From the NCBI RefSeq assembly GCF_964204645.1, contig NC_134029.1, positions 3,729,001 through 3,793,000 on the forward strand: DNA of 64,000 bases. The letters run 5' to 3'. Below, in pieces: positions 374 through 55,265 of the stretch (the stretch's first letter is position 1; every line of letters starts with the position of its first letter). Both the position numbers and the translations under genes were made by a program. The notes under the pieces were generated by a model. The model saw only the letters and a program-made list of their open reading frames with translations, was not told the origin of the DNA and made no database searches. This DNA comes from Tubulanus polymorphus (taxonomy: Eukaryota; Nemertea; Palaeonemertea; Tubulaniformes; Tubulanidae).

Positions 374-6641
<6,268 letters not shown>

Positions 6642-30746: not shown

Positions 30747-33425
30747 GAAGTTTACTTTGATGCCCAGTCTAGTCTCTCTACTGAGGAACTTGCTGCTAAT
30801 CTGTGCTTAGTTCGTGCCTAGTACCGGTAATAGAAGTATCGCTAAAATTAGCCGTGTACAAACAAATTCACATTCAAATGCGAACTAGGGAAATGATTTT
30901 CAGTATTGTGCACAGTAAAATTTATAGTTAGTACCAAAGTTGAATTCTATAATTCAATACGAACATTAACAGATATCACAATGTACTTAGATGGTGATTT
31001 TCCAATATTTTAAAGTCAATTAGATCAGTACGCATATATATTATATGTATATATGTATGTATAGTGTACATAAATATTTAGTGATACTGATAATACGATA
31101 CTCAATGTAGCGCGATGTGACCAAACTTAGATGAACAAAACCAAAAATTGGCATAATTAGAAGAGACCCGCGGTTAATAAATACAATATGTATCGATGTT
31201 TTGAAGAATGTCTAAGACACATTTAGATGAAATAGATTAATGATGATGGTTGTGTAGCTATTTGTTATGTAGTCAGTAATATGCAGTGCTGTAAGCTGAT
31301 GAGCATGGACCCTCCTTACTCGGCACTGGTCAACTCAATAGACCGCTAAATTCAGTCGATTTTACACCTAATCATTTGGGAAACTACTCCTGATTCTGAA
31401 CTCTGTGAAAAATCTACGGTCTATCGAGTAAGGCTGAGTTGACTGAAGTTCTGGTTCTTGATGTGTGTGTATGAAACAGCATGTAAAATTATATATAAGG
31501 AAATATTTATCGGAAATATGGAAAATGTACATATAAATGTGTGTGATAAAGGTCTGATAAGTTGCAGTGGGTTTTTTCATCATTGTCTATCTCCGTGTTC
31601 TCGAGCTATCTAAATATGGTTGTATACATGAATGTCAGTGATTTAGAAGTAGTTCTACTACCATACTACGATAGAAATAATGTTTTACATGTATAAAACT
31701 TTGATTCCATTTTTCTCTCCATTTCGTACTCGAAGCATTCCGGACAGTGTATATTGCGCATATTGATACGATGTTGTATTACGTAGGTATACAGAGAACT
31801 ACTTAAACTTAATGAGAAAATAGACAACACATTTCAACCACCTGCACTACTGGACTAGATTACTGGACTTTTCAAATCATTCTACCGGATTTCGGGTTGA
31901 AGCTCATGTACAGGTTACTCGAATAACCTTCAAATTATTTGTTTGTTCTGTAAAAGACGTTAAATTTATCACTTCCTCAATTGAAGCAAAATATTTTTGT
32001 GTATGATGGTCCTTAAGGGCTAGAAATGTTATCCATAAAGTTATGTGGCATTGAAATTGAGGAATGCATTGAATTTGATTCTTTTAATTCTAACAATCCG
32101 GAAGTTATAACCTTAATGAGCTCGATTATGGTTCTGAAAAGTCTGTCAAGTTATGTACTACTAACTATTATTGCCGTGTATAGACTTGTACATGTGTTGA
32201 AGATATGCGATGTAATCTTAGGTTTTCTGAATGATTAATTCAAATACTTAACGAATGAATATTCATATGTTTTACAATGAATTCTGTACGATATTAATCA
32301 ATCAATTGCGTGGAATAATCGGAATTATTGTGAATGTAATGTTTTTAAATCGCTAACATTAAATGTACTCAATGTACTGGTGCTTTGAGAGCGCGTTTGG
32401 GATACGAAGAAGCATTAATGTCGTTAGTTTGTCTGTGATTTTCACTTAATGAAATATGTTTTTAAATCTTCTAGTCAACGGAATTGTGAATTCGTCGGAA
32501 GCGTTTAAGCTTTTGGAATGTTATTTCAATGGTTGCTCGATGAAGTAAATATGTTGTTTGGTTAATTCTTTCTTGCCATCTTCCTTCAAGTAAGCTAAAT
32601 AGGCTACCAACTTCATGAGACCTATTTATTTAAAGTCTATTTAAGCTTTTCCTGGCCTTATCGTAAGGTATGTTACATCATAGTTTGACCAATGACTTGC
32701 TTTTTTTCAAACCTCAAAACGAAAACCTCACGTAGAATCGAGAACATTATTTCAATCTATTTTGCATGTAGCCAAAAATGCATATGTATTTTTGATGTAG
32801 CAGTATACACTTATGAAGGCTTTTGATTAGCTGTCTGATACCATAAGTGTATTTCTAGGAATCTTTAGCCTATATTATTTGCAGTGACAACCTTTTTGGG
32901 TCGTCGATTAGATTGAACCTGTATTTCTACACATAATAGTGAAATACGACATAGATCAGTGAAAATGATAATCACTGAACAAAAATGTACTTTAATTTTA
33001 TAGTTGTAGGTATTTTTCAAATGGTCAAAATTTAATTTTTTTGATTCTATCTCAATGGTTTCGTATTTGGACCTGACATTCCGAGTGTATCGTGTTTGTT
33101 AGATCATATTCGATATAAGTAGAATGTACGGGTTAGCCATACTTTAATTGCTCTTATTGCTAAAATATCGGTTTTGACATGAAATATCTCAACGTTGTAA
33201 AAGAAACATTTGTGTAGAAAATTAGAAGTAATTTCCGAGTGCCTTAGATGGTGGAGTATTTACTGTTATTTTACTATATGTAGGCTTAACATAGCTTCAC
33301 TGCATTTGAAAATGTTTTAAGTTGCGGCTAATTAGACTATGAATAAAGAAGCAGGCAACAATTTTGACGAAATCCATAATGCTGCCAAGAAAGTAGATAT
33401 TTTTCGGAGAAACCTTTCCTACAGC

Positions 33426-33566
<141 letters not shown>

Positions 33567-34766
33567 GTATAGCTTAAAGTTGAACGGAGGATATATTTGA
33601 ATATCGGAAATGTTTTGGTAGTGTAATGTTATGTTACTATGCATCAAAAACGGATAAAAAATGGGTGATGCAAAACTTTGGGAATTCAATACATCATCAG
33701 TACTGCATGGGTATTTTCAGGGGTCGATCGAGCCCGCTAATACTGTTACCGCTTGAACAGTAGGCCTGCTCATAGATGAACCAAGCTCGCAAATATGATA
33801 TGATCCCTTTATTTCAACTGTGTGGAATTGATTTCCACATTCCAAGAAATGCTCAGATTGTATCTGGACTCTGCTGTGATTGGTCCTGGACTGAGCTGTA
33901 CTGATGAGGCTAGATCCACCCGTGATTACTGAGGGCCCTACTACTAGTGACAGACCCAATCCTCTTTACCTGAGACTGACAATAGATAATGATAGAAATA
34001 GTCCGTAATTTAGATATATATTGCAATAATAGATACAGTAGCTCACCAAGCATGTTATATCGTAATAGATCATTATTATTTCTCTATATATAGATATATA
34101 TTTGTATGATTTGATTAAGCGCATGATATTTTAATCTTTAAGTCTGTGTAGTAGTTAAAATACGTTACACCGGAGTTTATCATTGTAATCTGCAAATATA
34201 TATATGTGTAGAATAATCTATTTTTGTTATTTAACAATAAAATTGCGTGAAATAAATAAAATTAGTGTATTTTCTATGTTAGAATTTTTATCTTATGGTT
34301 TTTAAGAACCCTTGGAGATCTTTGTTTTATTGTAGTGCTATGCACCGAATATGATTCGTCTTGATAGATGACTCTTGAGTGAGTAGCTGCTGGATCGGAT
34401 GTTACTTCTACCCAGGGAAAGATAGGCTGGGGCAGTAAAAACCAATTAATCGATTGATGATAATTAAGCCTTATTCGTTTATACAGAATATAGAAAGCGC
34501 CATTGAACATCTAATAATATTTTTTTAATTCAAAAACTAATGTCATAAAAGATTTTATAATTGGATCACAGTGAAAAGGACGCTATAGAAATTAAATTAC
34601 TATTAATATACTGGTCCGTTAGTAAGGATTGCCGCTGTCCGAACCGTTAGGCCAGTATTAGGCCAGTTCCATGATGTAAGTTAGACTGGTTGCCTGTCCC
34701 ATTCAGTCCGGTAACCAGTCTACAATGGGAACTCAATGCAATGACGCGATTGACGGATGTCCGAAG

Positions 34767-37900: not shown

Positions 37901-40421
37901 AAACCAAGAAATTCCTTGGATTTACTCAGCGTATTGGTGTGTTATGATATTGAAAAATCAAGGAAACTCAGGGGATTTCTAAATGGGTGGAAAGTGGCTA
38001 CCCAAACGTTCGAGCTAAGTCCTCGTTAATACGCTCTTATTGTTATATCAGTGAAAATGAAAGTGACGTGGTCGCAATTGACGACAATTCTGCAGTGAAA
38101 ACGAAAGCAAAACTGATACAATTCCACGAGAATTATCGACCTCCGTACTATGGCACGTGGAGAAAGAAGAGCTCAAAGCTGAACGCTAGGGACCCGTTTA
38201 GAAAAGATGAGGTGAGAGAGAAAGTTTTGAAACAATCTTGCGATAATGACTCGGATTCAACTTTTAATCAACTTTTCGAATTTTCAATAATCTTTCGTAG
38301 AATTTGTTTGATTATGAAATCGACAGCGACGATGAGTGGGAAGAAGAGGAACCAGGAGAGAGTTTATCTCACTCTGAGGTAAAGAAAATCCTGTGAAAAT
38401 GCTATCAGCTTACTCCGCTCAAGTCGGGCTCCAGTCCAACTTGAGAGTAATATCCAAATTACTGGGCAGATATACATAAATTTCGACTAAATGTTGTTCT
38501 GAATATATTTGATAATTAGGGTGAAGATGAAGATGAGAAGGTCGGCGGCGGTGATGATGCAGATGACGATGATGAAGATGGTTTCTTCGTCCCGCACGGC
38601 TATCTGTCGGGCGACGAAGGTTGCGAAGATGATGAAGACGTAAGGAATATTCTCGTATTAAGATTCAGTTTGCAGATGAACACATTTTGTTTGCCCTTTA
38701 TTGAGATATGAAATGTTCGCGATTGTAGATGAGTCCGGAGAAGATGAAAGCTGATCAGCAGCTGAAAGCTCGTCAGTTCGAGATGGATTTAAAGAGACAA
38801 TGTAAAGCGCTTGTTCCGATTATAATCGGATGTTTCATCGATGATAAACCAGGACCGATACCCGTACAATACAATCAATTAGAAACTTATCGGGTAAGAT
38901 TCGATCCAAGGGATTGAACAAAATTGTACCCATTTTGACGAAAAGTGCCTATAGAATGAGTACTCAAAATTTTGGGGGTCCTACAAAAGACTGATCAGAT
39001 TCTCTGGCCTTCCGACTGTCTTACACAATCTCAGATTTGATGTTGTTGTTTTTAGGCTGTTCCTTTGAATGACGGTAGTTTTCCTATTCCAACCTACCAC
39101 AGTACGAAGGGTTCATTACCTACTGATGCAGTCAGTGGGAGCCCGGCATCGAGAGCTGCCTCTCGAGCTCTTAAAAAACCAGTCCCCGAGGAAGGTAAGT
39201 TATTCAATAGTTATCCATCGATCAAGTTTTTGTATTCTTTTTTTGGAAGATCGTTTACGCAACCCAGAACCAGAATTTCCATTCTGTACTTCAATTTTCG
39301 ATTTCAAAATAAAACCCCGTTTCATTGCTGGCAGGTGTAGTGGGTTTGTTAGGAACTATCCTCGCTTGCCAGGATGATAGTTAGATGATTAGGGACACAC
39401 CAAAAATTAGCACGAAAATCAATCAATTAATCATACGTTAACTTTATTTTCAGCTATGTCGGATTTGATTCGTTTGGTGCACGGGAATATATGTGGAATC
39501 AAGAAACTCATTCGCGAATTCCGCGAGTACTGGAGACTGAAAAACGGTTGCAAACCGTCTTCAGAACTCGCAGAACAGAGTCAAGAGAATAACGATAATA
39601 TCGGAGTAGATTCTGGAGTCGCTCCGATGGAAGTCGATGCTCCGGTTATTACCGTACCATCCACTCCGACTAGTCCAGCTAATGTCAACGCGTCCGATTA
39701 CGAGATATCTAAACGTCAAGTCGAATTGAAGATCAACGCGATCGCGCAGTATAAAAAGGACTCGTCATATCCGCGTAAATGCTGGTACGTTAATCCTGAC
39801 ATGTTGAGTCAGTACAAGTTAACTGACCTGCCGATACCGGGTCAATGGCAGTACGTTACTAAACAACCAGTATCACGCGCTCCAACCCCACTGCAGCAGA
39901 AGGACGAACGCGAAGCGATGGATACCTCGACTCCAACTGCAACGTCGAAAACATCTGCGGGAATTTCAATTAAACAGTTCACCGTAAAGAGCTCACCGGC
40001 GGACGCGTTTAAATCGATGCCCATCGCGGAATTGACTCCCCCGAAACCAATTCCCGTTATAAAACCGCCCCGCCGAATAACCTTGACCTCATTTCTAAAA
40101 CCGAACTCGAAACCGACGGATATTTCATCTGCTGAGGGAGCGACCTCCACTGAAGGGACGACCTCTGCTGAGGGAGTGACCTCTGCTGTTCTCGGGACAT
40201 TAACGACTGGTGAATCATCAGTTGAATTGAATATGATGAATGGCAGTCAGAATTCAGTATTTCAGGCTCGACCTGAACACACCAATACAGTGAGCTCGGC
40301 ATTACAGGCTTGGCCTGCACTTGTCAATACCGAGAGTTCAGCGTTACAGGCTTGGCCTGCACGTGTTAATACACAGTTACTAGATGATGTCAGTGATGAC
40401 GATATTATCGTATTAGACTAA
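34906..40421 (+). CDS. CHAF1A: Chromatin assembly factor 1 subunit A (CAF-1 p150)
   Basis: Fourteen exons (34906-34936, 35154-35213, 35318-36075, 36458-36598, 36682-36812, 36893-36986, 37328-37402, 37492-37718, 38052-38211, 38301-38378, 38520-38639, 38729-38893, 39056-39194, 39454-40421) total 3147 nt, or 1048 aa, all in frame. In order: the N-terminal QARLPF motif (30-35, PCNA/PIP-type); a disordered acidic region; a highly charged KER coiled coil (about 284-405); an internal PIP box QQSFRSFF (413-420); LIQFHENYRPPYYGTW; the acidic block IDSDDEWEEEEPGESLSHSE followed by DDEDGFFVPHGYLSGDEG; then a C-terminal winged-helix region with LVHGNICGIKKLIREFREYW, CWYVNP (836-841), PIPGQWQYVT and the SIKQFTVK motif. 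The protein deposits newly made H3-H4 behind replication forks through PCNA. The tail carries short tandem repeats (SALQAWPA and STEGTTSAEG types). Confidence 0.97.
36108..36290. repeat. Foldback element, GTTTGTAGCCAGTCT...AGACTGCTACAAAC
   Basis: The inverted ends GTTTGTAGCCAGTCTGG and CAGTCAGACTGCTACAAAC enclose an interior with AGTGCTTACTTTTGGACT. It lies in CHAF1A intron 3. The DNA at the left edge of the window (1-283) is a diverged relative. Confidence 0.75.
37779..38003. repeat. Interspersed repeat, GGCCACTG...AAATGGG family, copy 2
   Basis: It runs from GTGGCCACTGACCTGGAAAA, through CAGGGAATTC, to AACTCAGGGGATTTCTAAATG and GAAAGTGGCTACCC. It shares block order with 8680-8815. It ends about 50 bp before CHAF1A exon 9, so it supplies much of that intron's 3' region. 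Confidence 0.65.
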
Positions 40422-43106: not shown

Positions 43107-46100
43107 TCAGTCATTACTTAATGAATACTTAAAATCTTTCGATTCTTTCGGAGGCTTTTCACGTACGAAATATGGCACGGATCCGAGCGGTACGGGGTAA
43201 TTCCTCAACCACGCCCCTCGTTTGATCGTATAGATAGCCGCGTGTTCCGGAGACTTCCATCGTCCGGCGGTCAGATAAACGTCGCGACGTCGTTCTCCCT
43301 TGTTCACAGAGGGCGCAACAATCACGTCATCACCCAGCATAAACTGATCGTCGATTACCTGCGCGTAACGATCGTCGTGCTGCGCCGTCCACCACATCGG
43401 ACGGATAATCGGGTCACCGGTGACCGACGCGTGCTCTGCTAATCTCTTCACGATCGGAAACACGAAATCCTCGTGAAGTTTCGCGAGTTTCTTCGCGATG
43501 ACGACGACCGAATCGTTGTATTGCCACGGCAACGTCGAGAATTCGAACGCCGGCAGAAAAACGGCGATTCCCAACCATCGTACGTAGAGCTCTTCTGGTG
43601 GGATCGTCACTTTAGAATCATTCGCTGTATTACGTATAGCGCTGCTACCGACTTGTAAACTCAAATACGGATAACCGTGCAAACCGAGTGTGAGTACAGT
43701 CGGTATAATCGTCTTCAAACCGTTCTGCGAGCCCCAGTTATTCTGTTTGCCTTCGATATTCATCAGAAGCGGTAAATGTTGAGTATGAGCGCCGACCGAT
43801 ACCTGCGTCTGGTCACCCCATTTAAGCGCTAAGGCGATATATTTCTCGACGAATGAGTCCGGATTGCTTAGATTCGCGTAGAACATCGGTTTTTTCGGTA
43901 ACCAGCCGATTTCTCCTCCCGCAACGCGAAAGATGCGCACGCCGTTTTCATTGACGATACGCTCTAGACTGTTATAGAACCATTTGGCGGCGGCCGGATT
44001 CGTGAAATCGCGCACGCAACCTTTACCACGCCACCACGACACGATACCGGGCAGTTTATCGAGGCTGGTTTTCACGTAGTAATCGTTGACGATGCCGGTG
44101 TGGAACTCGACGGAATCAGTGTTGACGAACGGATGAATCCACAGCGTTAGATTAAACCCGATTCGTCTGAGTTCGTCGACCATAGCGGTCGCGTTCGGGA
44201 ATTTGATCGCGTTGAATTTCAAATCGCCGTAACGATTCTCCCAGCCGTCGTGCAGTACGAGGTAACTGTTACGAAACCCGCGGGCCTTGATTGTCTCGGC
44301 CAGGTCGACGACGTCTGCCTGCGTTACGTTCGTACCGAATCGACCCCACGTCGACCACGCCGGATACCGAAATAAACTCATCGCCGGCACGTGCGCGGCG
44401 AATCGAGTCATATTCGCGAGCGTGAATCGGTGCACGCCGAGCATATCCTTGCCGCGACACAGTTCGTAGTTCAGACTCGGTTTATGCCCGCGGTACGGCG
44501 TATCGCGATACGCCGCGCTTAAACATAACTTATCGCCGTCGAAGCTGACGGATAGTGGGACGTCTTCGTCGACGGTCAGCGATATTCCCTTCGACGATAA
44601 CCAGTAACGCTCGACCACCGAACCGTACTCGCCGTCGAACATGTTACCGGTTAAATACGGCTCGAGTGAATGATTCTGACGATCCATCGGCCACAGTTGA
44701 TTCGGTATGATCGCGCCGCCGTACCAGTGACCGCTCAAATCGTAACAATCCATGAGCGGGTATTCGTCGCTTACGGCCGTCCAACTGACGCGGAAACACG
44801 AGATATCCTTGCTGATATCGTGGCCGGAATATTTGATATCCAGTTGACCGTATTTACGCCACAATAAAGAAAGATGCAACTTGCTGTCTCTGTCGGAGCA
44901 GGTTTTCGGGAGGCCCAAGTAAGGCATCGTGACGCCGAGTTTCCCTTTCAGTCGAATGTCTTCGGTATCATTTTCCCGATCAACGATCTACAAAAACAGA
45001 AACGTGATTATTGATAAGGAAATCATAATCACCCGATCATCCTCCCTCAGCACGGATTCGAACCTGATAGCAGCGTTTGACTCAGCTACGGCGAGAAACC
45101 CTGCCGCTGCAAAAATGAAACAGGATTTCTGATAATAATGACATCACTCGGGCTAGTCAGGCAGGGTTTCATAACGCGGTGAGTCTTAATGCCATCAGGT
45201 TTGTATCCCTGCCCATAGATTTCAAGTGAGAATCCACCAGTATCCTCCCCTGAAATCTATGGGAAGTTTGTGCACTTTATGAAAGGGATGTAGCAAAAGA
45301 ATTTTGAAAACTACCTTGAATGTTCGTTTATCTTCGCTGAAGACGATTTTCATCGCGATTTCAACTTGGTACATTTTACGATCATACTGCAGCCACACGA
45401 CAGTAACGCCCCCTACAATTATGACGAACAGGAACACGAGCAATGTCTTCAGTCTGTACTCTTTCGGTTTGATGATCTCAACTTTCTTTTTCGGCGGAGG
45501 TGGCACGATGTCATGCTGAAAATTGAACACACATTTTGGCAGTTAGAGAACTTGTTTCTGTAAAGGGAAGGCTTTTGAATCTCAGATATCCTTCATTGAT
45601 TATAATCCATGGAACCAATGTTAATTTTTTTTGTATATAAGATTAAATGTTGTTTCTGAAACCACTAAGGTTATTAAGAGTAAATTCATATACTATACCC
45701 AACCACAATATAAGTATCTTAAAAAGTAAAACGTATCTTATTTCATATATGTTTACATTTTTCCTAAGGGATCATTCATTTATTACGTACGCATGAGGGG
45801 TGGGTCAAATTTCACACGTAATAAATGAATGATACCTAAGTAGCTACTGTGAGATATTCTTATACGTGTATATAATTGTTATCGCCTTTCAATCAAACCC
45901 ATGAATAGGATCAAGAGCAAGCTTTGAAAATGTTTTTAAAGGAATGTAAGCTGAAGCATAGCACTTAAATAACTACACAAAATTTTTTTCTAGAAATCTG
46001 AGCAAAAGGGTTTGACTAGGAAAATCATGTTATGGTTTGAATTTGGCTTGAAAATTACTCCACATGGTTCATGTGATGTGTGATGACGGGGATTTCGGTC

Positions 46101-46950
46101 AATTTGATCAATATGATGCAATTACGACAAAAGCCATGAAAACCAATTAAGCAGCCTGCATATCGGTGTAGTTAGGTTATTAGATTGCCACAGGTGAACA
46201 GTGGTGAAATTATCAATGTGATATATTATTACATAGGCATTTAGTTTACAAGTGAACAGGTGCTCAACTCTCAGCGTTAGAAACAAAATAGGACGAACTT
46301 ATATCAGTTTTTTATGACATCGACATGAACTACTGAACAAATATACCTATCACACAATGTACACGTGCTTGAAAGCTAAAACTTGTCTTTCAGTAAAATG
46401 TCAGAACAGCGAGGTTAAGTTCTACACACACTAAAACAACAATTCCACACCACATCAAACAGTTAGTAGTAAACGCTGTGCAAATACATCAGAAGAAGTG
46501 TCATCTAAGAGACCCTAGACACTCTACTCTGCATGCTGGTGCTAGAGAAACTAACGTCGGGGCGGGGAGGTCAAGAGAAGCCTACAACTAAAATAGAAAG
46601 TCCTAAAATCCAGCACTTATAGTCCCCTACAGCCTCAGCCTAGGAAGATTATGCCAAAGGCTTCTATGTTGTGTGCAGTTTTGGAATTGGTCCCGACATA
46701 AAGAATCACTGACGACGAAGTCTGGAGGTCGGAAAACAAATCTACACACAAGTTAAAACATCAAGTGAATGAAGCCTATGAAGGTGTTCTAAATTGTGAC
46801 ATCGGTGTTTTTGCGAATAAAGTTTACCGAATGACGTCTTATTTTAGGCTTCTGTTTCGCGCCGTATTCGACGTCTGGTTCCGGGAAGAGTAGGTTGGCA
46901 AATACAACCGCTCTTCGACTAGGAGCGCCACGATACTCACTACTAGTCAT
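43107..46950 (-). CDS. MYORG-like GH31 family protein, predicted catalytically inactive
   Basis: With the proximal first exon the coding exons are 46950-46828, 45515-45315 and 44987-43107, giving 734 aa against about 714 in human MYORG. Both introns are phase 0. A short cytosolic tail (MTSSEYRGAPSRR...) precedes VPPPPKKK and one transmembrane segment (TLLVFLFVIIVGGVTVVWL, about 65-83), so this is a type II membrane protein with its GH31 domain in the ER/Golgi lumen. N-glycosylation sequons are frequent. Family motifs kept include HWYGGA, VVERYWLSSKGIS, YPAWSTWGRFG, YGDLKFN..KFPNAT, LWIHPFVN, RWLGIAVFLPAFEFS, GDPIIRPMWW, DQFMLGDDVIVAPS and RRRDVYLTAGRW. The nucleophile motif (KFDAGE in human) reads RVAGGE and the acid/base motif (VDRDSVWG) reads EGKQNNWG, so both catalytic Asp are missing. 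Alternative first exons upstream are listed separately. Confidence 0.93.
45763..45840. repeat. 78-bp foldback element in MYORG-like intron
   Basis: CCTAAGGGATCATTCATTTA at the left pairs with TAAATGAATGATACCTAAG at the right, separated by TTACGTACGCATGAGGGGTG. It is a compact near-palindromic MITE. Confidence 0.8.
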
Positions 46951-47964
46951 CTCTCTTACACTCCTCTCACAGCGAACTGTTAATCGTTAAATTCGGAGAA
47001 AAAGAAAACGAAAAATTTCTAGTGAATTCACAACAAAAATTATTTAGAAGAAACTAAAATGCTAACAGCATGCCTGGTGTTAGAATTGATGAAACCTCGA
47101 TTTAAACTTAAACACGTTGCAAACTCAAGGACTTTTTCCGATTCCTCACATTCAATTTTCATCATTTTCTAACGAGGTTCCATCAAATGTTACGAAATCC
47201 TACAATAGTGATTCTAGAAGATTTACGTTGAAACTGTCCAAGAACGGGGACAGAAGGCGATCTTTCAACGAGTCATGAAATTGTGGCCGATCGTCGGGTA
47301 TTAACTGGAAAAAAAGTTTTATAAAAAAAAGAATTACGAAAATTATCAAAAATCGGCAGCTGTGACTACATTGGATGTTTATTGTAGTTTAACCCTTTTG
47401 AAGCTATAGCGCAAAAGAACACATGGTTTTTGAGAATAGCTGATAGCCCATTGTTGTATCAGATGTTATATATGAATATTTTTCCATTTTCAATATAATA
47501 TTCCGCATACACGAAGCTTTCGTCAAGCACAAATAAATCATTGCTCGACTTCAAAGCAAAATAGTAAATTGTAGTCTGCATAGCTTTTAATTATGAATCG
47601 AAATACCTATATGTTCTGCCTGTGTCTGAATTCAGTATATTATTGCAGTTATTGTGAGATCATATTTTCAAAGAGCGAGAGACATTGCATCGGCATATAT
47701 TACTTTACAGCGAATTCAAAGCAACAGATGTGGCAAACGCGATATTTAATAGTTTTAAAATAAGCCTAATCAAATTTGATTGAATTCGAATAATCTAACG
47801 AATTGATCTGATATTCTTATCATGTGGTCTATTGATACCAGTAAACGGGTTATGTTAATTGATATGAATAGACGAGTCCAAACTAGAATCTATGCAAAAA
47901 TACTGGAGGGAACGAGGATACACGTAGGCCTATTAGAAAGTGCTTTTCAAATTACATTGATGAT

Positions 47965-48328: not shown

Positions 48329-48436
48329 CTCGATAGCGACTAGGGGTTTGTTACTGGTGGGTATGGCTACGCGGCCATCAATCGAACGTACTGGTGGCCG
48401 TGAAACAGCGCGGCCAGCTCGAATCCATGTAGCCAT
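48329..48436 (-). other. Candidate alternative first exon (36 codons), MYORG-like gene
   Basis: On the minus strand, ATG at 48436 opens 36 codons (MATWIRAGRAVSRPPVRS..., ending PLVAIE), then a GTAGTA donor in phase 0. The phase fits the exon starting at 45515. It would supply a basic cytosolic tail before the shared transmembrane exon. The exon is CpG-rich relative to its flanks. The donor is only moderate and no upstream elements are diagnostic. Confidence 0.35.
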
Positions 48437-49065: not shown

Positions 49066-49821
49066 CTTCGATATCGATGGTCCGAATCCGTTGAAAAATG
49101 AATAGCTACACTTCTCCAAAACAAGATTACTCGACGATTTCTTCTTTTTCTTTTTCGGCGGAGGAGGAGACTGCGGCGTCGACGGTTTCAAGCGAGCGGC
49201 GAGCCAAGGACTTTCAGAAGTTGACCCGACCGATGATTGCGTAACGTCGCTCCCCTCGATAGGAGCGAGTTTTACTAAATTATCAACGCTCCAGTTGACT
49301 GATTTACTGATTTTCCGTCGTGGTACGATCAGCTGATTATCCGACGTGACCGTGTGATACAATCGATCGTCGCTGCTCTCTAACGACTCAGGGAATAATC
49401 CGATCAGTGAACTTGGCGGTTTTAGGATCGAAGATATTTTTCTCGGTAAAATCGCCTCCGATTCCTTACACCTAACTGCGTCCAAGCTACGAACGGTCAA
49501 ATTATCGCTTTCGATATTTTTCAGGTTTTTTGCTGGTTTTATTTTTTCATTTGATGCTTTGTCGATATTTATAGTCGGAATAACTTCAACAGTTTCCGGC
49601 GGTTTGCTTTCGTTATCTACTTTCACGACTTGGAAACGAGAGCGTTTTTCAGTTGGTTTTTCGACATCTTCAACCACGACAGTAGCAGCAGTAGCAGCAG
49701 CAGCAGCAGGTGCGACTTCAGCAGCTATAGCTCCTTCGACATCAGTTGTTGAAATAGCTCTCTCTTCTTCGGGGACAGGGGTCAATTCTGCGGTGGAACC
49801 ATTCGAAAGATCACTTGCCAT
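49066..49821 (-). CDS. Distal alternative first exon (252 codons) of MYORG-like gene, or separate small gene
   Basis: ATG at 49821 opens a clear coding exon of 252 codons ending in a phase-0 donor (TCGAAG|GTATAT at 49066). If spliced to the exon at 45515 it would give a 945-aa form with a long cytosolic tail. Visible features are an acidic Ala-rich N-terminus, a SRFQVVKVD stretch carrying the RFxV docking motif used by SPAK/OSR1 kinases, several basic Ser-rich patches, and PPPPKKKKKK near the end. That last block is coded by 18 nt identical to the VPPPPKKK start of the shared exon. Read without splicing, the frame stops at 49045 as a 258-aa protein. I recognise no domain. Exon reality is likely; which transcript it belongs to is inference. 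Confidence 0.6.
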
Positions 49822-52577: not shown

Positions 52578-55265
52578 ATGTCTCTCGCTGCAAGACACAA
52601 TGCCGTAAGTATCGGGAAAAATCATGACTTCAATTAAAGTTTCAGTTTTGATTTGAGCCTCGCTTGTTGTTAATGTTTTGCGGGGCGTGTGAATGATGGT
52701 GGTGTGAGCGAGGCGCTTAGACTTGTGGGGGTAAAATTTATTTTTAAAAACTCTTGCCCAATACTGTCATTTAAATCCCATATTGGATTCATTGCACAAA
52801 CAAAAAAATTCATTGCACAAACATTGTCGAGCAAAATGGACAATCGTCAATGGATGGAATGAATCAACCACACTCCATATTTCATATCATCTCGGTCAAA
52901 GACAACCCTTATGTTAGCTGGTTAGTGCCATCCTTAAATCTGGTAAAGATCCTGACTAAAATTTGGCTTATAGGCCCTAGGCCTGGGCCTATACTTTGTA
53001 GCTGAGGCCAGCCAGGAGGGTTGTTGAAATTTAGGATTTTGGTCAAAAGGACATACCCTCTGCTAACACTTGTATTGGCAAATGATATGAATTTTCCATC
53101 CAATTTGTTAATTTCTTTCAGAATGTATTTGGTCGATTCAACAATAATGAGAATAAAGACGTCCGTGCTGCTGGTAAAATGGTAACCAGAGCTCAGATAG
53201 GCACACGAGCGGCCTTAGGTGCGCTCACAAACAAAGTCTCAAATCTTGCATTAAATGTAAGTAAAACATTGATTTTGTGGGAATTTTGCTGCAAATTCAT
53301 GTTTTAGGTTTACCTGGTTTTATAAAAATTGGGAATTTCGCTCCGATTTCTAGGCGGGTCTGCCGAAGGAGGGTAAATTACAGAAAAGCAAAGGATTGAG
53401 TGACCTGAAAGCGATAGATAAAGAAAATGCCGGGGCTGTCAGGATAAAGGTATGGAAAAAAGATTTGAATTTATAAACCAGTAAAGTTATATGAATATTT
53501 CCTCAATTTTGGATGAATTTCGTTTCACAGAAGGAAGCAAAACGCGAAGTGAAGCAAGAAATTGCGCCGAAAAAAGAGACGAAAGAAATCGATTTGAAAA
53601 AGTCTGTGAAACAAGAAGAACCACGTCATGAAGCGTTCTCCAGACAGATGCTCGGTCAGATCAATAATATCGATGCTAATGACAGAGGAAATCCACAACT
53701 AGTCACTGAATATGTTAACGATATCTACCAATATATGAGGCATTTAGAGGTTTGTGTCATTTTATTAACTCGTGCTTATTTCAGTTATGCAAAAACAAAA
53801 CAGATGTTTTTATGCAAAATATATCTTCTTGTTGACCTAAGTTGCTACTACTATGTTCCTCTGTATTATGTATGGGTTTTGATATTATATTTTCAGGATA
53901 AATATGCGGTGAAACCTCGATATCTGGAAGGGAGCGAGATTAACGGCCGCATGAGAGCGATTCTTGTCGATTGGTTGGTTCAAGTTCACACGAGATTCAA
54001 TCTGTTGCAGGAGACTCTTTACCTCGCCGTTGCTATTCTAGATCGCTTCTTACAGGTAAAGAACTAAGAACAGCGGTACTGGTCAGTCGGAGACTGTCTA
54101 GGTTCGCAAAACAATCGTACAACTTAAGTCCAGACTGCATCGGACTATTGAAACAAGATTACTCTATCCAATTCGTGTTTTTATACGTTTACAGGTCAAT
54201 CCGGTGCCAAAAAGTAAATTGCAGTTGATCGGAGTTACGGCGATGTTGCTCGCTTCAAAGTACGAAGAAATGTACGCGCCAGAGGTCGGTGATTTCGAGT
54301 ATATCACCGATAACGCTTACACTAAATCCGAAATCAGAAAGGCTGAGGTTTTCATGTTGAAAGCTCTGGATTTCAATCTCGGAAAACCACTCGCGTTACA
54401 TTTCCTGCGTAGGAACTCGAAGGCTGGGGATGTAAGTTTTTTAAGACTAGTCGTGTCAATTAAATGCAGTGTCATTTACAAAACTTGTCCCTTTACTCAT
54501 TTCATTGTTCTCTCATTTTAGGTCGATGCCAATAAACACATGTTGGCTAAATACCTAATTGAACTGACCATAATCGACTACGAAATGGTGCACCACAAAC
54601 CATCGGAAATAGCAGCTGCCGCTCTGAATCTATCAATGAAAATTTACGACCTCCCTTGGGTATGTTCCTTCTACCTCGTAACATTTACTTAAGAGGAAAT
54701 GTTTCTGAAAATTTAAAAAGACGTTTCAAAATCGATTTAATTGCTACTTGAACACAGTTTACCTAAATCAACGATCTAGGGCTCGTTTTGAGTTCCTACT
54801 TGGCTCTCTAGGGAATTGTTAGTTATTTTGACTTGTATTTTGCAGGGCGATACTCTGACGCACTACAGCACGTACAGCGATGACTTCCTGAAACCAATCG
54901 TCTCAAAGATCGCTAATCTAGCAGTTAAAGCGCACCAAGGAAAACTGTTGGTAAGTTCATCATCCGTGTGGTGTCCACTGTTCAAGAGGACCATTTGCTC
55001 ATTAGTTGGTTAAGCATACTGGTGGACGAATAAACCTATCGAATCGTTAGTGTCACTTAGTCATCTATCCACCATTAAACTTAACCAACTTCAGAGCAAC
55101 TGGTCATATACCAAATCTGAACTGATCACACAATATTATCATTAATTTTTGTAGGCCGTGTACGACAAGTATTACAGTTCAAAATTCAACAAAGTCAGCG
55201 CGATAGCGATCACTAGATCATCGAAAGTGAACGACATCATAGCGCGTTGTTCATCATCGTCGTAG
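52578..55265 (+). CDS. CCNB: G2/mitotic-specific cyclin B
   Basis: Nine exons (52578-52604, 53122-53256, 53354-53449, 53531-53749, 53897-54055, 54195-54431, 54522-54659, 54846-54950, 55155-55265), each a multiple of three, total 1227 nt, or 408 aa. The N-terminal destruction box RAALGALTN (38-46) fits RxxLxxxxN for APC/C-dependent degradation. A Lys/Glu-rich linker leads to the cyclin box with [16 protein letters not shown] (178-193), [48 protein letters not shown] and [10 protein letters not shown]. The second cyclin fold carries [12 protein letters not shown] and [11 protein letters not shown]. All junctions are GT-AG, phase 0. It is the regulatory partner of CDK1 at mitotic entry. The C-terminus is short and Ser-rich (RCSSSS). 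Confidence 0.97.
54986..55105. repeat. Decayed foldback element in cyclin B intron 8
   Basis: It starts GAGGACCATTTGCTCATTAG and ends TTCAGAGCAACTGGTC. Internal GTTGGTTAAG, TATCCACCA and CTTAACCAACTTCA blocks match the element at 13254-13396. Confidence 0.55.

Follow-up and report, generated by a model that had tools for sequence, protein, structure and literature searches.

A 64,000-nucleotide stretch of Tubulanus polymorphus DNA (the window) carries on its minus strand a gene, probably intact, whose product would be a type II GH31 pseudoglycosidase of the ER lumen in the MYORG/NET37 lineage, most likely with a role in binding or scaffolding, whilst an intact paralogue elsewhere in the genome would keep the alpha-galactosidase activity. 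Judged from its residues, the window protein should be beyond the retaining alpha-galactosidase reaction, as its catalytic nucleophile is replaced by Ala, its acid/base by Gly, and most of its contacts to the 2-OH, 3-OH and 4-OH groups of galactose are changed. By its sequence it retains the fold, the membrane anchor, the disulphide cysteines C158/C284, the aromatic residues W321 and W426 at the pocket, and the greater part of the hydrophobic insert that forms the dimer. Loss of catalysis combined with retention of fold, anchor, aromatic residues and insert points to a binding or supporting role in the lumen. The protein would then be a membrane-tethered ER-lumenal barrel, probably homodimeric via the insert, that most likely binds a partner, either glycan or protein, inside or close to the altered opening of its barrel, cleavage of alpha-galactosides presumably staying with the separate intact paralogue.

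Gene model and domain organization

Three coding exons on the minus strand (46950-46828, 45515-45315 and 44987-43107) make up the gene model, giving a protein of 734 amino acids when the proximal first exon is used. This exon (46828..46950, 41 codons) starts with an ATG at 46950 and encodes the cytosolic N-terminus, its splicing being predicted from a GT donor, a phase-0 join and an open frame. The second coding exon (45315..45515), bounded by AG/GT splice sites, encodes a transmembrane segment at residues 65-83, TLLVFLFVIIVGGVTVVWL, with a hydropathy of 2.73 over 19 residues. The main exon (43107..44987; 1,881 nt, 626 codons plus stop) encodes the N-terminal beta domain, the GH31 barrel and the proximal beta domain, and all nine N-glycosylation sequons of the protein lie C-terminal to the membrane segment. 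Three paralogues on contig C7, described below, share a phase-1 intron immediately ahead of the proximal beta domain, and the main exon has none there. The coding sequence of human MYORG lies wholly in exon 2 according to PMC8570371, whereas splicing of zebrafish myorg involves at least exons 1 to 3 according to PMC9308368, and the intron pattern was therefore given no weight.

Further exons upstream on the minus strand could supply alternative cytosolic N-termini via the membrane exon. A possible distal first coding exon (48329..48436) would join a possible alternative second exon (47227..47304, 26 codons, phase 0) and then the transmembrane exon in phase 0, as suggested by the open joined frame and the splice consensus. 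A possible further N-terminal exon (49066..49821, 252 codons, phase 0), which may be part of another gene, matched no Pfam family at E 0.1 or below; it holds an RFQV motif, presumably of the type recognised by SPAK/OSR1 kinases.

Family assignment

The main exon matched both GH31 models, PF01055 at 89.4 bits (cut-off 23.5; E 3.7e-25) and PF21365 at 57.7 bits (cut-off 24.4; E 1.6e-15). With phmmer, residues 62-608 of its translation matched solved human MYORG (7qqf/7qqh) at E about 1e-125 (7qqf 9e-126), and MYORG was the best solved-structure match at 424 bits, the next protein scoring 183.5 bits. This best structural match and the single N-terminal membrane anchor place the protein in the MYORG/NET37 lineage by descent. 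Human MYORG (NET37, KIAA1161; 7qqf-7qqh) is an ER-lumen GH31 alpha-galactosidase, and the window protein shares with it the N-terminal anchor, the three lumenal domains, W321, D354, W426, Cys at both C158 and C284, the N-glycosylation site at N372 and most of the hydrophobic dimer insert. The bacterial GH31 alpha-galactosidases 8j52 and 8j53 and their relatives share the barrel and proximal domain with the window protein, at 28-31% identity over about 400 residues.

Residues were compared in an alignment that set the window protein and its three paralogues in the T. polymorphus genome against human MYORG (residues 156-711) and 73 bacterial relatives. A query with a bacterial enzyme had given 365 relatives, bacterial by their titles, of which the best 80 were kept; these are close to the query enzyme and form a narrow outgroup. 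Seven of the 80 loci were dropped by a frame filter (letters GG, DD and PW plus a long match to 8j53). Searching genome contigs and viral contigs for relatives with two animal proteins gave none, and no further animal MYORG was found there.

Loss of active-site residues

In the available text of PMC9491548, D463 of human MYORG is the nucleophile and D520 the acid/base, and the contact, specificity and catalytic residues are D213, W321, D353, D354, W426, K461, D463, R504, R517 and D520. A sequence-only reading of this gene had described loss of both catalytic aspartates, and the alignments bear this out: phmmer and three MAFFT alignments agree in register, placing Ala464 (codon GCG, 43920..43922, minus strand) opposite D463 and Gly521 (codon GGC, 43749..43751) opposite D520, with no gap between the two sites and with the residue numbers, counted from the proximal first exon, as that reading had given them. 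This concordance rules out a misalignment hiding intact Asp residues. The changes of EIDD to VLHD and of GYPFILPD to GYPYLSLQ are likewise as it described. Besides D463A and D520G, the protein differs from human MYORG by D353H (His354, codon CAC, 44250..44252; a contact of the galactose 4-OH in PMC9491548), R504S (Ser505, 43797..43799; 2-OH and +1 sugar), R517N (Asn518, 43758..43760; 2-OH) and the conservative K461R (Arg462, 43926..43928; 3-OH contact), and the GYPFILPDMVGG loop is replaced. The galactose-specificity residue W321 and the contact D354 are kept, whereas the contacts D353, K461, R504 and R517 are not.

Nine of the ten named positions, all except 213, are identical in human MYORG, the intact paralogue and 73/73 aligned bacterial relatives. 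Only three of these nine (W321, D354 and W426) are kept in the window protein, against 57 of 76 other invariant columns, in which human MYORG, the intact paralogue and 90% or more of the bacteria agree (Fisher p 0.017). The invariance of D353/D354 is partly selected, because the bacterial loci were fetched with an IDD pattern and the frame filter asked for DD; with these two left out, 2/7 are kept against 57/76 (p 0.020). Several of the 19 changed non-catalytic columns adjoin active-site motifs in sequence (A464G, I352L and the P551-G556 loop). Both catalytic Asp residues are present in 8j53 and in 73/73 aligned bacterial relatives, unlike in the window protein. The 8j52 chain has Ala at the nucleophile position and is presumably an engineered mutant.

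With no nucleophile, no acid/base, and both R504 and R517 gone, a double-displacement reaction and normal binding of alpha-galactosides would be very unlikely, and loss of catalysis is, on these residues, near certain. The chance that an assembly or sequencing error produced the two codons is negligible, given that the frame is intact, that the codons start 171 bases apart and that four further active-site residues are changed too. A tblastn search of the 64-kb window, run up to E 1 with human MYORG and the intact paralogue as queries, returned only the main exon and no intact duplicate exon nearby.

Alternatively, the protein might still catalyse a reaction, by a different mechanism or on a different substrate, for instance with Glu520 as acid and substrate assistance replacing the nucleophile. 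Glu520 sits one residue before Gly521, and inserting a single residue into the loop would place it at the catalytic acid/base position, a caveat on the register there; two eroded paralogues have Glu at the 520-equivalent position, and D354, W321 and W426 are retained. The known GH31 mechanism, however, uses an Asp nucleophile, no acidic residue of the window protein lies opposite that position, and the 2-OH, 3-OH and 4-OH contacts are replaced. Continued catalysis of this kind is considered quite improbable, and a pseudoglycosidase is the preferred reading.

MYORG-family genes in the genome

A six-frame search of the assembly (267.8 Mb, 77 contigs) with the window protein gave six matches corresponding to four MYORG-family genes, the window gene on contig C5 and three others on C7, three of the four having altered catalytic sites. 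The sequence-only reading had proposed looking for a second, intact MYORG paralogue, and one is present at C7:6.33 Mb (L001/L010), with the motifs EIDD, FKFDAGE and MDLDSKWG. It belongs to the same GH31 subfamily as the window protein (33% identity) but, unlike it, keeps all ten active residues, has neither C284 nor hydrophobic dimer residues of the MYORG type, and has the phase-1 intron. In about 5 kb searched upstream its first exons did not turn up; the interval holds two short frames with hydrophobic segments, which could not be placed.

The remaining two genes, L004/L011 (G000:C7:7273786-7274673; 7.27 Mb) and L009 (G000:C7:14261000-14267000; 14.26 Mb), each combine a long open frame and a hydrophobic N-terminal segment with an eroded active site. 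Their alignments shift between runs and their residue assignments are tentative. L011 reads FKATATHGVGE, with a four-residue insertion at the nucleophile motif, L009 reads FSVDRKI, and in the tentative alignment both have Glu at the 520-equivalent position. In a targeted-loss test, L011 kept 2/9 active residues against 47/76 other invariant columns (p 0.033). The corresponding figures for L009 were 3/9 against 35/76, and with a p value of 0.72 this gene looks eroded throughout.

No second close copy of the window gene was found in the genome among the candidates, of which 7/7 were scored. Other GH31 matches, each of several exons, lie at C1:10558000-10567000 (L016), C8:15988000-15997500 (L014), C9:15795000-15803000 (L015) and C5:4328000-4336000 (L012); the match on C1 keeps a WNDMNE nucleophile motif. 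A search for mollusc haemocyanin gave no hit, a negative that falls short of showing absence.

Local loss of the active site in a gene probably under constraint

Up to four residues either side of the nine active residues, 19/60 positions of the window protein are identical to human MYORG against 35/60 in the intact paralogue (p 0.006); the contrast is weaker when the nine themselves are left out (16/51 against 26/51, p 0.07). Taken together, the N-terminal domain, insert and proximal domain show 92/237 identities in the window protein and 92/241 in the intact paralogue, the respective values being 35% and 34% for the N-terminal domain, 43% and 36% for the dimer-forming insert and 42% and 45% for the proximal domain. 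For the rest of the barrel plus insert the counts are 106/286 and 119/284 (p 0.27). The loss thus looks mainly local and targeted, and divergence concentrated at the active site would not be expected of an unconstrained gene.

The stops, frameshifts and drift in composition towards background that mark a decayed pseudogene are absent from the window gene. Its main exon has 0 stops in 626 codons, against 19, 26, 27, 29 and 30 in the other five frames. GC3 over the whole coding sequence is 0.61, compared with a GC content of 0.38 for the whole window, 0.33 for the 3' flank and, for two introns, 0.36 and 0.43; GC3 of the three paralogues is 0.49-0.54. By the Nei-Gojobori method, pS was 0.80 and 0.76 against two paralogues and 0.79 between those two, with dS infinite, and no dN/dS ratio is given because synonymous sites are saturated against both. 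The earlier statement that this is not a pseudogene is supported indirectly, by the open frame, by GC3 of 0.61 against 0.33-0.43 and by non-catalytic domains conserved as in the intact paralogue, and the window gene is likely to be live.

The rival account is a gene on its way out, having recently lost catalysis and having no job, with a frame not yet broken. The branch of the window protein (4.4) is longer than those of human MYORG (1.5) and the intact paralogue (2.1), and with this faster rate partial relaxation is possible; 19/76 non-catalytic invariant columns are also changed, and the active sites of two further family genes in this genome are eroded as well. Against this, a rough neutral estimate from the changed invariant columns predicts 9.5-11 stops in 626 codons where none is seen, an estimate that is only indicative because it assumes that the changes followed the end of constraint, and some may be selected or predate the loss. 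Together with a GC3 far above local non-coding GC and non-catalytic domains conserved as well as those of the intact paralogue, this makes decay an improbable account, and a retained pseudoglycosidase is favoured over it.

Dimer interface and relationship to vertebrate MYORG

Human MYORG dimerizes through an insert, with interface residues F402, V406, L419, L422 and I429 in the available text of PMC9491548. At these five positions (human F V L L I) the window protein has F I L I K, four of the five being hydrophobic, and the intact paralogue has Y R N H E. The shared hydrophobic residues at 406 and 419 may be animal inventions, since bacteria are mostly polar or small there, whilst 402 and 422 say little because bacteria are also aromatic or aliphatic at these positions. 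Other dimer residues are changed in the window protein, with I429 replaced by K, E407 by V and Y397 by T. By these sequence comparisons, more of the MYORG dimer interface is retained by the window gene than by the intact paralogue.

A further reading is that the window protein acts as a regulatory partner, in a pseudoenzyme-enzyme heterodimer with the intact paralogue at C7:6.33 Mb. Dimerization of human MYORG through the insert (PMC9491548) and the largely kept hydrophobic insert residues of the window protein are in keeping with this, but the intact paralogue lacks those residues, so that a heterodimer would not use the known interface, and its first exons, which might encode an anchor, were not detected in the upstream interval described above. 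Such a partnership is judged quite unlikely, homodimerization of the pseudoglycosidase via its own insert being the preferred arrangement.

The shared interface residues and C284 are suggestive of the window gene being the orthologue of vertebrate MYORG, an assignment against which its lower overall identity to the human protein counts (37.3% over 542 aligned residues, compared with 42% for the intact paralogue). Phylogenetic trees, which took in 15 and 13 of the 73 bacterial relatives, grouped the window protein with human MYORG (support 82/54), and alternative orders were not rejected (p-AU 0.22 and 0.34). The fuller proposal, that the window gene is the true MYORG orthologue in this animal by its dimer insert, C158/C284 and anchor, with catalysis given up and alpha-galactosidase activity kept by a separate paralogue, is tentative and rather less likely to be right than wrong. 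If it held, or if the window gene and a dead clade known from Diptera formed one ancient dead line, MYORG would have in animals an enzyme-independent role, old and separable from sugar cleavage.

Relation to known inactive NET37 proteins

Dead proteins of the MYORG lineage are already on record in insects, as the available text of PMC8063059 (2021) divides NET37 (MYORG) of sandflies and other dipterans into two clades, with and without catalytic residues. The dipteran clade IV resembles the window protein in its NET37/MYORG lineage, its membrane anchor and the judgement that it has no hydrolytic activity, and the intact clade III alongside it parallels the intact paralogue in the T. polymorphus genome. 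Two sandfly members have Pro replacing the proton donor, where the window protein has Gly and, at the nucleophile, Ala, a comparison made by description only. Lysosomal alpha-glucosidases without catalytic residues are also reported there. To the known dead NET37 proteins the window gene adds a case in which much of the sugar-contact shell went together with the catalytic pair, in a loss that is chiefly local, and in which an intact paralogue sits in the same genome. A search of open-access literature, with subscription journals mostly outside its range, gave no paper on MYORG or inactive GH31 as a pseudoenzyme and none on molluscan MYORG/KIAA1161; on NET37 catalysis it gave PMC8063059 and PMC9491548 only, and for MYORG in invertebrates the titles and abstracts held nothing on dead MYORG.

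Mutations of human MYORG are linked in PMC9491548 to primary familial brain calcification, and its available text describes a conserved function yet to be uncovered and an expectation that other metazoan orthologues are alpha-galactosidases too. The window protein, which retains the anchor, the fold of the lumenal part and the greater part of the dimer insert but is predicted to be without catalysis, would depart from this expectation and could serve as a ready-made separation-of-function tool for testing whether MYORG acts in part non-enzymatically. The cell study of Datta et al. 2009, cited in PMC8063059 for myogenic activity depending on the catalytic site, argues the opposite way. One intact and three eroded MYORG-family genes in a single genome would provide a small natural series for the change from GH31 enzyme to pseudoenzyme.

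Neighbouring genes

Elsewhere in the window, long low-complexity open frames on the minus strand at 3769-4200 and 33297-33716 consist of simple repeats (Arg-Glu/Gly-Glu and Ile-Tyr runs) and are probably not genes. Exons of chromatin assembly factor 1 subunit A (p150), matching PF12253 and PF15539, lie on the plus strand at 37954-40421, and exons of a cyclin gene, in two consecutive plus-strand frames matching Cyclin_N (PF00134), at 53495-54521.
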